A stretch of 10,045 nucleotides of DNA from Candidatus Adiutrix sp. (GTDB lineage Bacteria > Desulfobacterota > Desulfarculia > Adiutricales > Adiutricaceae), in contig JAITBV010000165.1 in assembly GCA_031283395.1 (NCBI GenBank), positions 1 through 10,045 on the forward strand, given 5' to 3'. A program made the translations under genes and the position numbers. Shown one piece after another: positions 6,123-10,045 of the stretch (position 1 is its first letter; the number at the start of each line of letters is the position of its first letter). The notes under the pieces are model-generated. The model was given only the letters and a program-made list of their open reading frames with translations. It had not been told where the DNA came from and searched no databases.

Positions 6123-6150
6123 GCCCGGCTTTCAATTATGGAAGCCGGGC
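6123..6150 (-). terminator. Terminator hairpin overlapping the end of pylB
   Basis: A 9-bp perfect GC-rich stem, GCCCGGCTT at 6123-6131 with AAGCCGGGC at 6142-6150, has the pylB stop codon TAA (6138-6136) in its loop. On the minus strand it is followed by GCCTC and then TGTTTTG, a modest T-rich stretch. It also lies just after the chemoreceptor stop, so it may work in both directions. It implies that pylB is the last gene of its transcript. Confidence 0.65.
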
Positions 6151-7227
6151 TCGGGCCAGGATTTTCAGGCGGCGGCGGTAATCTTCGGCTGTGGCGGCCT
6201 TCAACCCCAGCTCATTCAGAACAGGCCTCACGCCGGCCAGGCTGCGGGCTTGATTGTCGATGTCCAGTTCCGCTTGGGCCACCCCGGCCAGGCCGTGCCC
6301 GGCCGGCACCAGGGAGGTTATGACGTCAGCTCCGGCTTGGAGGCGGTCCCTCAGGCCGGCTAGGCCTTCAACATCCAGGGAGGCCGGGATGAGGGCTTCG
6401 GGCCGGGTCAGGCGCAGGACGGCGATCAAGTCCAGTTCCCGCCTCCGGGCCTCTCCGGGCGAAGGGGCCGGCGTCCATAGACCGGGCGGGGTTCCAGCCG
6501 CTTCCGGGGGTGGCATATAGGCCATACCCCTCACCTGTTCCGCTCCCAATTCCATCATGGCCAGGACCGAGTCGGCCAGGTCGGCCGCGCTCTCGCCCGC
6601 TCCGCACAAGACCCCTTCCTCCACCAATAGCCCTTTCGTCCGGGCCGCCAGCTTGGCGGACCAGCGCCGGTCATAGCTCTGGCCCGGCCTGAGCCGGCTG
6701 AATAGCCCCCTGTTGTGGGTTTCCTGGTAACAAGCGTACCAGGTCGCCCCGGCTTTCCGGTAAGCCGTCAAAGCTTCATCTTCGGCCACCCCCGGGGAAA
6801 CCATGACCGGGAGCCCGGTCACCCGGGCCACCTGGCGGATGAGTTCGGCTGTTTCCCTGAAAAAATCCGGCTGGTCGGCCTTTTGGTCTTCGCCCAGGGT
6901 CAGGTCGATAAGATTGACGCCCTGGGAGGCCAAATCCCGGGCCGCGGCCAGAATCTCCGGTTGGGAGAGGCGATAGCGCCGGGCCAGGGGGTTGTCGCGG
7001 CGGAAGGCGCAGAAGCGGCAGGCGTTGCGGCAGAAAGTGCCAATATAGACAAAGCCGTAGGTGTGGATGAGATCTCCGCTGTGGCGGGCCCTCTGGGCCC
7101 GGGCCGCGGTTTGGACTTCAGCCCGTTCTTCCGGCCGGGTCAGGCTCAAAAGGGTGACAAGGTCGGTCCTGGTCGGGGCGGACCCGGCCAGGATCCGGGA
7201 CAGAAGGGCGGTCAGGGGCCGAGCCAT
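6136..7227 (-). CDS. pylB: PylB, methylornithine synthase (radical SAM)
   Basis: PylB is the first enzyme of pyrrolysine biosynthesis: a radical-SAM mutase that rearranges L-lysine to (3R)-3-methyl-D-ornithine using a [4Fe-4S] cluster, in the cytoplasm. The cluster motif CRNACRFC gives C66, C70 and C73 (CX3CX2C), preceded by HTYGFVYIGTF and followed by RRYRLS. Further PylB marks are IDLTLGED (107-114), MVSPGV (142-147), CYQETHN (166-172), RLRPGQSYD (178-186) and IPASLDVEG (280-288), the last being the substrate-contacting strand in known PylB. The length (363) is normal. Biotin synthase and HydE are related, but these motifs fit PylB better. The ATG is 6 nt after the pylSc stop with only a weak Shine-Dalgarno, so translation is probably coupled. 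pylC and pylD do not follow; a terminator does. Confidence 0.93.
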   Translation of the reverse strand: MARPLTALLSRILAGSAPTRTDLVTLLSLTRPEERAEVQTAARAQRARHSGDLIHTYGFVYIGTFCRNACRFCAFRRDNPLARRYRLSQPEILAAARDLASQGVNLIDLTLGEDQKADQPDFFRETAELIRQVARVTGLPVMVSPGVAEDEALTAYRKAGATWYACYQETHNRGLFSRLRPGQSYDRRWSAKLAARTKGLLVEEGVLCGAGESAADLADSVLAMMELGAEQVRGMAYMPPPEAAGTPPGLWTPAPSPGEARRRELDLIAVLRLTRPEALIPASLDVEGLAGLRDRLQAGADVITSLVPAGHGLAGVAQAELDIDNQARSLAGVRPVLNELGLKAATAEDYRRRLKILARARLP

Positions 7228-7233
7228 GCCGGT

Positions 7234-8097
7234 TCAGCCCTGGATATTGAGGCGGAAACCGGCCAGGTAGGCAAGGCTGCGGCCGGCTCGCAAGGGGTTC
7301 AGGGTTTGCCCCCTTCCAGCCGCCAGGGCCATGACCAGGCGTTCCAGGCCGAAGCCCAAACCTATCCAGGGCATATCCATCAGGCCCCAGTTGGCGTCCA
7401 GAGGATGCGGCCCCATGGCCGTGCTGGCCAGTTCCAGGCCGTCAGGGCTTTCCACATCCAGGGTTTCTCCGTAAACTCCGGAATCCACGAGGGTCAGGCG
7501 GCACTTTGAGGCCGGTAGTCCGGCGGTATTTAAAACCAAGTCGGCCAGTTCCCGGATCCTCTCCCGGCGGGCCGGGAGAGGCAGGCCCATTTCCACCAGG
7601 TTGAGCATGGTGAATTCGGTGGCGTGTTTGGCCCCCTGGGTCTCCTTGCGCAGACAGGGGCCGATTTCAAAAATGGAGACCGGGTGGGGGGCCAGACGCA
7701 GGAGATCCACCAGGAGATAGTAAAGATTAGGGGCCAGCATGGGCCGAAGGGCCTTGTTCCGGTCCAGCCAGAATATCTGCCGGTTAAGGCTGTGTTCAGG
7801 CCCGAGGCCCATGCGTTCCAGGAGGGACCGGGAAACTGTGAGGGGGGTTTCCACTTCGGTGAAGCCGGCCGAGGCCAGGGCGGCGGCCAGTTTTTCCCGG
7901 AGCCTGGCCAGCTCCGGGCGGCCGCCGGAGGCCAGATGGCGCCGGAGCCCTTCGGCCGCGGCCCGGGCCATCTCTTTTTCCAGGAACTGAAAGACCTGGT
8001 CGCGCTCGGCCCGGTCGGGGAAATCCCGCCCCATAGTTTCTTCGTCCGCGTCCAGTTCTTTAAGTCGCCGCCCCTGTTCTTTGCTCCAACCAGTCAC
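7234..8097 (-). CDS. pylSc: PylSc, catalytic half of pyrrolysyl-tRNA synthetase
   Basis: This is the separate catalytic domain of pyrrolysyl-tRNA synthetase, a class II enzyme that attaches pyrrolysine to tRNA-Pyl. Its 287 residues match bacterial PylSc in length. Motif 2 is FEIGPCLRKE (143-152) and motif 3 is GLGFGLERL (246-254). Pyrrolysine-pocket residues can be placed by comparison with the archaeal enzyme: Y126 and L129 in APNLYYLL, N166 in TMLNLVEMG (the amide-sensing Asn), Y209 in GVYGETLDV on the mobile loop, and W244 in PWIGLG. The position of archaeal Cys348 is valine (V168). The ending RLNIQG resembles the family's conserved C-terminus. The start is GTG at 8097 with GGAG 9 nt upstream; an upstream ATG in this leader is closed at once by a stop. 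It is the middle gene of pylSn-pylSc-pylB. Confidence 0.95.
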   Translation of the reverse strand: MTGWSKEQGRRLKELDADEETMGRDFPDRAERDQVFQFLEKEMARAAAEGLRRHLASGGRPELARLREKLAAALASAGFTEVETPLTVSRSLLERMGLGPEHSLNRQIFWLDRNKALRPMLAPNLYYLLVDLLRLAPHPVSIFEIGPCLRKETQGAKHATEFTMLNLVEMGLPLPARRERIRELADLVLNTAGLPASKCRLTLVDSGVYGETLDVESPDGLELASTAMGPHPLDANWGLMDMPWIGLGFGLERLVMALAAGRGQTLNPLRAGRSLAYLAGFRLNIQG

Positions 8098-8122: not shown

Positions 8123-8467
8123 TTAAGTGTTTTCATGCAAAAAGGAACCCTGGCGGCGGCTGAAAAAGGTGGCTCCATATTTGTCGAGCTTCCATTGAGG
8201 CACGGCGCAGGCCGGACAGGGCGCCTGGTAAAATTTGCCCCGCAGCCAGCGGGCGGCCCGGCTGCGACGGGAATTGCGCACCTTGAAACGGCGGCCGCAG
8301 TGGGTGGTTAGAATCGCGACTTCTCCCTGCCGTTCGATTTCTCTGAGGCCGTGAAGAAAGCCGGAGCGGGCCGGCCAGAGTTTCATTTTTTCCAGGAGGG
8401 TCAGAAGGTCCAGTTTTTTGCGGTAATAGCGCTTGGCCTGACGGGCGGAGTTGACATTTTCCAGCAT
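8123..8467 (-). CDS. pylSn: PylSn, tRNA-binding half of pyrrolysyl-tRNA synthetase
   Basis: PylSn is the small partner of PylSc. It binds the T-arm and variable-loop side of tRNA-Pyl, giving the synthetase its specificity. In bacteria it is a separate protein, as here (114 residues). The family core is visible as LWPARSGFLHGL (30-41), THCGRRFKVRNSRRSRAARW (55-74) and the CPAC pair (C84, C87) followed by WKLDKY. The CxxC and H39 are the likely zinc ligands by comparison with the archaeal N-terminal domain. The lysine/arginine-rich N-terminus (KRYYRKKLD) precedes the core. The start is ATG at 8467 with only a weak TGGA upstream; the core motifs do not depend on this choice. It leads the operon, 25 nt before pylSc, with a clear promoter. 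The stop is TAA. Confidence 0.9.
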   Translation of the reverse strand: MLENVNSARQAKRYYRKKLDLLTLLEKMKLWPARSGFLHGLREIERQGEVAILTTHCGRRFKVRNSRRSRAARWLRGKFYQAPCPACAVPQWKLDKYGATFFSRRQGSFLHENT

Positions 8468-8515
8468 GGCGGGTCCAGAAGAGCGTTATTGTGGAAAACT
8501 TTTACACTGCCGCAG

Positions 8516-8544
8516 AGTTTAGCCCTGTCTAAATATTTTGTCAA
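8516..8544 (-). promoter_or_regulatory. Promoter of the pylSn-pylSc-pylB operon
   Basis: On the minus strand a perfect -35 TTGACA (8544-8539), a 17-nt spacer and a -10 TAAACT (8521-8516, four of six) point to a start near 8509, about 40 nt before the pylSn ATG. Confidence 0.7.
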
Positions 8545-8582
8545 GAGAATGGACGGTAGCTGAGTTTAGGTAAACCTCTTGA
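8541..8582. promoter_or_regulatory. Inverted-repeat patch upstream of the pyl promoter, possible operator
   Basis: TCAAGAG (8541-8547) and CTCTTGA (8576-8582) form a 7-bp inverted repeat whose left arm overlaps the -35 box of the pylSn promoter. Between the arms is the palindrome GTTTA-GG-TAAAC (8564-8575), and GAGTTTAG (8562-8569) also occurs at the -10 box (8515-8522). This would suit a regulator-binding site, but no regulator is encoded in the window. Confidence 0.3.
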
Positions 8583-8598
8583 AGCGTTTTAGGGCTCC

Positions 8599-8618
8599 GG
8601 CACCCACCTGGCACCCAC
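8599..8618. repeat. Short tandem repeat GGCACCCAC
   Basis: GGCACCCAC is present at 8599-8607 and again at 8610-8618, an 11-bp period. It lies between the two divergent promoters. Its function is unknown. Confidence 0.6.
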
Positions 8619-8649
8619 GGAACAGCAAGATTTTGCCCTCTTGTCATTT

Positions 8650-8679
8650 TTGACTTTCCCTTGGCCTTTATAGTATAAT
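8650..8679 (+). promoter_or_regulatory. Near-consensus promoter of the structured RNA and secreted protein
   Basis: TTGACT (8650-8655, five of six), an 18-nt spacer and a perfect TATAAT (8674-8679) make this one of the best promoters in the window. Transcription should start near 8686, at the foot of the first RNA hairpin and about 335 nt before the start codon of the secreted protein. Confidence 0.75.
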
Positions 8680-8686
8680 TCTACAC

Positions 8687-8854
8687 AGGTACTAGAAATA
8701 CCTATCTGCGGTCGCACGCCCGTAGCCGTGTCTTTTTGTTTTCTGTCTATTTGAGGTGATACGGCCGGGCGTGGACTGAATACAATACCGTAAGGGAATA
8801 GGTTCGCAACTCAGATAGTTGTTTCTAGCGCCCGGCCTCTTTAATTTAGAGGCC
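8687..8854 (+). ncRNA. Structured RNA or long leader with competing helices, unknown class
   Basis: From the predicted start site the transcript can fold extensively. A first hairpin pairs AGGTA 8687-8691 with TACCT 8699-8703. A closing helix pairs CTATCTG 8702-8708 with CAGATAG 8812-8818. Inside it is a 20-bp hairpin arm: GGTC 8710-8713 with GACT 8774-8777, CACGCCCG 8715-8722 with CGGGCGTG 8766-8773, and GCCGTGTC 8725-8732 with GATACGGC 8758-8765, capped by a 25-nt U-rich loop. The 3' part has CGCCCGGCC (8829-8837), which can instead pair with 8763-8771 over 9 bp and break the long arm. It also overlaps a last hairpin (GGCCTCT 8834-8840 with AGAGGCC 8848-8854). Two mutually exclusive folds suggest a switch. 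It matches no riboswitch, 6S, tmRNA or SRP signature that I can recognise. It could be a free small RNA or the 5' leader of the gene at 9021. Confidence 0.6.
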
Positions 8855-8880
8855 ACCCAGTATTCTGCAGGACGGCGTTC

Positions 8881-9036
8881 ATGCCAGTATTGCTCTACAA
8901 ACTTCTCGCCAATAAATACCCCTTCATTATAAAGCCCTTCAAGCGCCGGCTAGGTTTAGCATTTTTTTGCCCTTCCTTTGTCTTTTCTTGTATTCATCAA
9001 TCCAATTTCGGAGGTTCGTCATGTTCAGGCGTTTAG
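8881..9036 (+). CDS. Possible 51-residue upstream ORF
   Basis: An ATG at 8881 has AGGA 8 nt upstream and opens a frame of 51 codons. It encodes a hydrophobic, basic peptide (start MPVLLYKLLANKYPF, then KPFKRRLGLAFF) and ends in TAG at 9034-9036, 16 nt into the secreted-protein gene and in another frame. This geometry would suit translational coupling, or a toxin-like membrane peptide. Codon use gives no support and the frame may be chance. Confidence 0.25.
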   Translation: MPVLLYKLLANKYPFIIKPFKRRLGLAFFCPSFVFSCIHQSNFGGSSCSGV

Positions 9037-9872
9037 CATCATTTTCGGTGAAACAAACAATCGGTTTTTTGTTGTTCAGCCTTTTGGCTGGCGTGGTTTT
9101 ATGTGGGCCGGTTCAGGCCCAGGAGAAAACTTTCACCAACAGTATCGGTATGGATTTTGTGCTGATTCCGTCCGGCCAATTCAGTCGTGGGGTGGTGACT
9201 GCGGCTGAAGCGGTTAAGAACGATTTTGGCGAAGTGGTTCAACCGGCCAAAGATGTGGAACGCCTGGTAACGATCAGTCGTCCCTTTTATTTGGGCAAGT
9301 ATGAGGTGACCCAGGAGCAATGGGTGGCGGTGATGGGTGAGGGGAGCAATCCATCCAAAAACACAGGGCGGACCAATCCGGTGGAAATGGTGAGTTGGGA
9401 TGACGCGCAGAAATTCATTCAGAAATTGAACGAGAAGGAGGGCGGGAAGAAGTATCGTTTGCCCACGGAGGCGGAATGGGAACATGCGGCCCGGGCCGGG
9501 ACTAAGACGAAATGGTTTTTTGGGGATAAAGAGAAAGCTTTGGGCAAGTATGCCTGGTTTGGGGGAAACCATGCACCCGGCGGGAATTCCGGGAGAGACG
9601 CGCACCCGGTTGGTCAAAAGAAGCCCAACCCTTGGGGTTTATATGACATTTATGGGAATGTTTGTGAGTGGGTGCAGGATTGGTATGATGAATACCCCGA
9701 GGAGGCGGTGACTGACCCGACTGGTCCGTCCGGGGGCTCCAACCGGGTCTTCCGGGGCGGCAGTAGGTACGGCACGGGCGATTTTTGCCGGTCTGCCATC
9801 CGCTTCAGGTTCACGCCGGACTACCGCTACGTCAGCCTTGGTTTCCGGCTGGCTTTCTCCCCAGGTCAGTAA
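9021..9872 (+). CDS. Secreted FGE-sulfatase/C-type-lectin-fold protein, candidate DGR target
   Basis: The 283-residue protein starts at the ATG at 9021 (GGAGG 6 nt upstream; an earlier in-frame ATG at 8967 has no such site and would spoil the signal peptide). Residues 1-34 are a Sec signal ending in PVQAQ. The rest is a formylglycine-generating-enzyme-like (FGE-sulfatase) domain with a C-type-lectin fold: GMDFVLIPSGQF, YLGKYEVTQEQW (90-101), NPVEMVSWDDA, YRLPTEAEWEHAARAG (145-160), NPWGLYDIYGNVCEWVQDWY (203-222), NRVFRGGS (241-248), LGFRLA (273-278). It lacks the two catalytic cysteines of true FGE (only C256 lies in that region), so it is unlikely to make formylglycine. Such folds are common display scaffolds and binding proteins. 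The gene lies on the opposite strand between pylT and pylSn, and its codon use is more AT-rich than its neighbours. Export suggests action at the cell surface. Confidence 0.9.
   Translation: MFRRLASFSVKQTIGFLLFSLLAGVVLCGPVQAQEKTFTNSIGMDFVLIPSGQFSRGVVTAAEAVKNDFGEVVQPAKDVERLVTISRPFYLGKYEVTQEQWVAVMGEGSNPSKNTGRTNPVEMVSWDDAQKFIQKLNEKEGGKKYRLPTEAEWEHAARAGTKTKWFFGDKEKALGKYAWFGGNHAPGGNSGRDAHPVGQKKPNPWGLYDIYGNVCEWVQDWYDEYPEEAVTDPTGPSGGSNRVFRGGSRYGTGDFCRSAIRFRFTPDYRYVSLGFRLAFSPGQ
9750..9836 (+). other. Candidate DGR variable region (residues 244-272)
   Basis: The last third of the lectin fold has invariant anchors (RGGS, CRSA, PD, LGFRL) separated by slots that in DGR-diversified proteins of this fold derive from template AAC/AAY codons. 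Here the slots hold F244, Y250, G251, T252, D254, F255, I260, F262, F264, T265, Y268, Y270, V271 and S272, and most codons have the form NNC (ttc, tac, ggc, atc, gtc, agc). Phe and Tyr codons before residue 240 are mostly ttt (8 of 13) and tat (7 of 8); from 240 on they are ttc (5 of 6) and tac (3 of 3). That shift inside one gene suggests a different origin for this segment. Ordinary FGE-domain proteins share the anchors, so without a template repeat this remains a hypothesis. Confidence 0.5.
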
Positions 9873-9900
9873 GGAAAAGGGTGGGGCAGGGCGGTGCGCC

Positions 9901-9936
9901 GAGCGGACGGCCGCGAAGTGGAACGGAGCGGACGGC
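9901..9936. repeat. 11-bp direct repeat after the secreted-protein gene
   Basis: GAGCGGACGGC occurs at 9901-9911 and 9926-9936 with 25-bp spacing, in a GC-rich stretch directly after the stop codon. Confidence 0.75.
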
Positions 9937-9952
9937 GAGAAGGCCACCGCTC
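9926..9952 (+). terminator. GC-rich hairpin after the secreted-protein gene
   Basis: GAGCGG (9926-9931) pairs with CCGCTC (9947-9952), and inside it GGC (9934-9936) pairs with GCC (9943-9945). No T-run follows on the plus strand, so termination is doubtful. A GC-rich inverted repeat close behind a variable region is also the place where DGRs carry the hairpin that promotes retrohoming. The first direct-repeat copy (9901-9906) could compete for the same partner. Confidence 0.4.
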
Positions 9953-9982
9953 TCTCCTTAAAAAGTGATAAAAAGTAAAAAT

Positions 9983-10045
9983 TGGCGGAGGGCCCGGGAG
10001 TCGCACCCGGCTATGAGGGTTTAGAGCCCAAACGATCCTTTGCCG
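9983..10045 (-). tRNA. pylT: tRNA-Pyl (CUA anticodon), 5' end beyond the window
   Basis: Read on the minus strand, 63 nt of a tRNA end in an encoded CCA (9985-9983) after discriminator G. The 3' acceptor strand is GCCCTCC, the T-arm is CCGGG-TGCGACT-CCCGG, and the anticodon loop is CTCTAAA with CUA, which reads the amber codon UAG. Pyl-specific marks are the T-loop without TTC, the identical CTCTAAA loop, the 3-nt variable loop (TAG), and exact length agreement with archaeal tRNA-Pyl from the second D-stem strand (GATC) to CCA. The six-pair anticodon stem has two mismatches in the middle (TTTGGG against CCCTCA). The first D-strand and 5' acceptor strand lie outside; GGAGGGC is expected there. 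After CCA the minus strand has T-runs (9977-9956) that may end transcription. Confidence 0.85.

Follow-up and report, generated by a model that had tools for sequence, protein, structure and literature searches.

Can a gene be recognised as the target of a diversity-generating retroelement (DGR) on a contig that carries neither the reverse transcriptase (RT) nor the template of such an element? This question is raised by a 10,045-nucleotide contig (JAITBV010000165.1, hereafter the window) of Candidatus Adiutrix sp., a termite-gut symbiont, in which an open reading frame (ORF) at positions 9021-9872, lying among pyrrolysine (Pyl) genes, encodes a protein with the C-type-lectin-like fold of formylglycine-generating enzymes (FGE). 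We consider it highly probable (about 0.93) that the last 45 residues of this protein are the variable region of a DGR target, which an RT encoded elsewhere in the genome rewrites from a template. This rests on where the variable slots lie, on the codon pattern, on how homologues vary and on complete homologous DGRs in relatives. We regard the gene as a remote target of a DGR that is either still live or has left it orphaned; probably the element is live, and a template and RT of the gene's own would then be present and acting. The distant RT would copy a template RNA carrying Asn (AAC) codons at the slots, the template adenines would be misread during reverse transcription, and the mutagenised cDNA would replace the 3' end of the FGE-fold gene, randomising about a dozen amino-acid slots and leaving anchors and scaffold fixed, with a repertoire of binding faces as the outcome.

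The fold of the protein agrees with the original prediction, made from the DNA letters alone, of a C-terminal lectin-fold segment. A Pfam scan of nine window ORFs assigned an FGE-sulfatase domain to ORF 9021-9872, and its product has TvpA of Treponema denticola (PDB 2Y3C), a DGR target, as its best match both by sequence and by predicted fold; as in known DGR targets, the variable region occupies the 3' end of a C-type-lectin-fold gene. The variable slots of TvpA lie on its ligand face, and those of the window protein may, by analogy, do likewise. Its N terminus resembles a signal peptide by eye, and the product is probably exported, perhaps to the cell surface, and would bind something. Among the best 120 homologues listed, those of named source include Ca. 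Adiutrix and further Deltaproteobacteria together with Betaproteobacteria and others, and the top locus among 28 in the genome collection is L001 of the Ca. Adiutrix genome G001. Three homologues of 485-492 aa (P0002, P0003 and P0005) possess two FGE domains each, every one with its own variable-looking tail by eye. It is scarcely credible that the window protein is a true FGE whose active-site loop merely looks variable. The Pfam domain and the other PDB matches, which include FGEs, would suit such an enzyme, but TvpA is the best match on both counts, the protein does not have both active-site cysteines, and residue 251, a slot occupied here by Gly, aligns with the first cysteine of the YLCHDSYC loop of the S. 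coelicolor FGE, whose cysteines we take to be the catalytic pair.

Complete DGRs with homologous targets occur in relatives, for which we used the 37 genomes of the family set of G001. An RVT_1 match is present in 18 of these genomes; among 18 listed family-set loci with a YxDD-like motif, motif 4 has the QGxxxSP form in 12 and the SQ form, typical of DGR RTs, in two, L038 (IGSLISQ) and L056 (IGGVASQ), both in genome G028. On contig C123 of G028 (L089), an FGE target, an HRDC protein (PF00570, 61 bits), an RT and a template all point the same way, and this template differs from the adjacent target at 15 of 27 adenines but at only 3 of 98 other bases, those three at the very end. As a DNA query, this template found 12 other places in G028, each within an FGE gene (the adjacent target and 11 further genes), the more distant targets differing from it at up to 27 of 98 non-adenine bases. 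Target, HRDC protein, RT and template follow one another in the same order in genome G016, where the RT is in two ORFs and the target has 18 of 31 adenines and 6 of 92 other bases changed. Outside the family set, a Ca. Anammoxibacter locus (L004) has a DGR-type RT, an FGE protein 46% identical to that of the window and a template with 15 adenine mismatches and none at other bases over 108 bases. A DGR-type RT is also present in a member of the Bacteroidia (L009), where a scripted template search found none, and viral relatives of the G028 RT were found at 17 loci, with at most 36% identity. G028 as a whole has 47 FGE matches (E <= 1e-25), several of them in tandem, and 12 genes fit one DGR template; a second RT-like region, spread over several ORFs at 2159-3398 of L090 (G028:C176:55500-61000) and containing IGGVASQ and YMDD, is apparently a broken DGR-type RT.

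The templates of G028 and G016 align with the window gene without gaps over 41 codons, and the differences concentrate on template adenines: 17 of 27 adenines versus 28 of 96 other bases for G028 (p=0.003), and 20 of 31 versus 22 of 92 for G016 (p=7e-5). The pooled Asn codons of both templates place the first slot at residue 241 (position 9741) and the last at residue 272 (9834-9836), after which comes a conserved end, and the interval 9741..9860 first proposed for the variable region was therefore well placed. The anchors of the region run TGCCGGTCTGCC...CTTGGTTTCCGG. Ten of the 11 codons opposite Asn codons of the G028 template end in C, whereas this holds for 19.7% of codons in the body (p=8e-7) and, in the rest of the segment, for 14 of 30 (p=0.003); the L004 and G016 templates agree, upholding the earlier claim of NNC codons where templates carry AAC. 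The shift from ttt/tat to ttc/tac noticed in this segment is also real, since the ratio of C- to T-ending Phe and Tyr codons is 6:15 in the body and 8:1 in the last 45 codons (Fisher p=0.004), and that of all C- or T-ending codons is 47:63 and 25:8, respectively (p=0.0013). The compositional outlier with respect to the contig is, however, the body of the FGE gene and not the variable segment: G or C occupies the third codon position in 142 of 238 body codons and 36 of 45 segment codons, versus fractions of 0.68-0.81 in seven other window genes (ORF 1-606 being left out of this comparison). In six of the 11 aligned variable regions of G001, columns with at least three different bases fit the same NNC pattern by eye, and the window matches 64 of their 79 invariant columns.

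The predicted hypervariability is found at these same slots. In a sample of 95 proteins (215-300 aa, the window protein included) taken from the best 120 listed of 7902 matches, mean entropy was 3.47 bits at the 11 slots, 1.16 at the 30 other variable-region columns and 1.26 at the 238 body columns. Ranked by variability, all 11 slots come within the first 16 of the 283 alignment columns, the rest of the top 20 being columns 241, 252 and 263 and six body columns; displaced by one to six residues, the slot set has a mean of only 1.23-2.16 bits, and none of 20000 random column choices reaches the mean of the slots. P0004, the most identical homologue among the matches listed, shares with the window protein 171 of 190 body residues and 24 of 30 residues in other variable-region columns, but none of the 11 slots. 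At the protein level, and against the templates of relatives, variation thus falls on template-adenine positions. That this pattern arose through ordinary diversifying selection acting on a binding face, with no retroelement involved, is very improbable. Binding faces can evolve fast and FGE-fold genes are numerous in genomes such as G001 and G028, yet the columns that vary fall on template Asn codons rather than on positions shifted from them, third bases remain C, and residues outside the NNC set are rare (M, W, Q, K and E make up 37 of 1044 slot residues versus 1016 of 4161 in 46 variable body columns); template-target pairs, moreover, exist in G028, G016 and L004.

Several results weigh against a variable region rewritten by a distant RT. 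Given their differences at non-adenine bases, neither the G028 nor the G016 template can be the window's own. Residue 249 is encoded by agg in the window and by tgg in both templates; P0004 also has Arg there, which suggests a related template with an Arg codon. Columns 241, 252, 254 and 263 are highly variable too (3.04-3.51 bits) although they are not Asn in the G028 template, while the G016 template has adenine at all four. In the four G001 genes used for codon comparison, identical codons at conserved residues amount to 17 of 23 in the variable region and 59 of 96 in the body, which is not clearly different. We found no template within the window and no RT among its nine scanned ORFs, as the original prediction had stated, and the variable region queried with its adenine slots opened had no match in viral contigs and none in genome contigs. 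Of 765 template-like ORF matches, 120 were listed; 114 of these carry Asn at nine or more of 11 slots, but none of the 120 is the template of the window gene, the best having 26 of 34 anchors. In G001, the closest of the 37 genomes by PylSc, a search for a DGR-type RT yielded nothing beyond one RVT_1 match below the cut-off, and the scripted template search found none for two variable regions of L001. Two further searches say little: a stricter generic AAC pattern matched none of the 37 genomes but was too strict, because it missed the known G028 and G016 templates, and a DNA search with the G028 template hit no genome of the 37 except G028 itself, missing the G016 template and being therefore uninformative on other templates.

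These absences bear on whether the retroelement is still at work. We find it plausible, without favouring it, that the variable region is an orphan, diversified earlier or in another host and now frozen between pylT and pylSn with neither template nor RT. The composition of the FGE body is unlike that of its seven neighbours, and the gap between pylT and pylSn, about 1.5 kb in the window (8468-9982), is far shorter in G001 (177 bp) and G003 (78 bp), so that the FGE gene and an RNA upstream of it look inserted beside the tRNA gene. G001 has 13 FGE matches and yet no DGR-type RT was found in it, and an ORF at L001:3099-3410 resembles by eye the start of an HRDC accessory, with no Pfam match. PMC4891356 tabulates T. 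denticola strains with target genes but no template repeat or RT, which makes an orphan a real possibility. Against it stand the intact ORF with its codon pattern and the conserved 3' end; in addition, the searched genomes are fragmented (G001 into at least 399 contigs), and in such many-contig assemblies a missing RT is weak evidence.

If the retroelement is live, its reach may be wider than this gene. We suggest tentatively, and regard as rather unlikely, that a single DGR acting in trans serves a large repertoire of exported FGE-fold proteins, dispersed over the genome, in Ca. Adiutrix-like bacteria, and that the conserved flank after the stop codon (~9880-9945), aligned with those of four G001 FGE genes, is a portable recognition element making inserted copies targets anywhere. 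A pattern built from three G001 flanks had no matches in G001 beyond these three, from which it follows only that copies of the flank are not scattered over this assembly. The window flank has no significant fold or stem (in 34 of 100 shuffles a stem as long as its own 6 bp arises), whereas downstream of four of the seven listed G028 template-matching targets there are stems of 15, 12, 12 and 9 bp, lengths attained in 0-1 of 100 shuffles. According to PMC3521204, a hairpin or cruciform after the variable region is needed in a subset of DGRs.

The features of the locus are collected in Table 1. That the bacterium uses Pyl, as had been predicted, is borne out by its genes, with pylB, pylSc, pylSn and the 3' part of a tRNA-Pyl flanking the target, although ARAGORN reported no tRNA in the window itself. 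Among the 17 genomes with a PylSc match, G001 and G003 come closest to the window, their proteins sharing 73% and 70% identity with its PylSc. The RNA between pylSn and the FGE gene belongs to the sRNA-Xcc1 family, first described in Xanthomonas (PMC2996969) and named in integron papers. We rejected it as a companion of FGE genes, since 0 of 20 RNA loci of relatives had an FGE-like ORF in the stretch examined and Rfam found no such RNA at any of 20 FGE loci examined in G001 and G028. An integron was likewise rejected: TIGR02249 matched in all five genomes searched, but also in all 14 controls, and no integron integrase above the family cut-off was found in the five genomes. In G003, a tandem array of period 153 bp and 5.7 copies (L176, G003:C3:71600-73800, at 521-1390) contains six sRNA-Xcc1 matches at 153-bp spacing, most of them under the gathering score; there are 22 such matches in this genome.

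Table 1. Features of the window around the putative DGR target gene
Feature	Position	Strand	Support
pylB	6136..7227	-	TIGR03910, 367 bits (cut-off 348)
pylSc	7234..8097	-	TIGR02367, 259 bits
pylSn	8123..8467	-	TIGR03912, 110 bits
sRNA-Xcc1-like RNA (RF02221)	8763..8845	+	56.4 bits (gathering score 53); between pylSn and the FGE gene, which lies downstream
FGE-sulfatase-domain (C-type-lectin-fold) protein, putative DGR target gene	9021..9872	+	Pfam; signal-peptide-like N terminus by eye
Putative DGR variable region, fixed anchors and slots	9735..9860	+	Codon alignment to G028 and G016 templates; entropy
Slots	residues 241, 244, 250, 251, 255, 260, 262, 263, 264, 268, 270, 271, 272		All NNC except ttt (255) and agg (263)
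Conserved 3' end of variable region, candidate end like an initiation of mutagenic homing (IMH) site	9837..9872	+	Very similar in several G001 genes; putative function
Post-stop flank, candidate recognition element	9880..9945	+	Alignment of five flanks (window and four G001 FGE genes), mean column identity 70%
tRNA-Pyl (anticodon CTA), 3' 63 nt, cut by window end	9983..10045	-	Matches G001 and G003 tRNA-Pyl found by ARAGORN

Among known systems, the T. denticola DGR is alike in its FGE-fold target with a C-terminal variable region, and has two to seven dispersed targets and an HRDC accessory between template and RT (PMC4891356). It differs in belonging to another phylum and in having its own template and RT in view; its targets are also often lipoproteins, whereas the window protein has no lipobox by eye. 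The G028 DGR has an adjacent FGE target 59% identical to the window protein and template Asn codons that fall on the window slots, but its template is the divergent one described above and G028 has no PylSc match. Remote variable proteins of cyanobacteria resemble the window gene in that CLec genes lie away from the RT with 3' ends matching a template (PMC7517822); in these genomes, unlike the window, each template is known. The closest known systems also include Thermus aquaticus TaqVP and Bordetella phage Mtd. FGE-fold targets, HRDC accessories and dispersed, RT-remote targets have already been published, as PMC4891356, PMC3521204, PMC7517822 and PMC8144416 indicate, and what is new here is a further DGR target, in an Adiutrix-like bacterium with Pyl genes. 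One literature search found no paper that mentions both Adiutrix and DGRs, so the lineage may be unreported; of nine papers listed for DGRs with termites, none concerned termite bacteria by title, and the one listed for DGRs with pyrrolysine dealt with crAss-like phages. The template of a relative aligned with the gene, combined with the entropy of homologues, allows a remote target to be recognised on a contig without an RT. If one element does serve a dispersed repertoire, Adiutrix-like bacteria would keep many diversifiable binding proteins.
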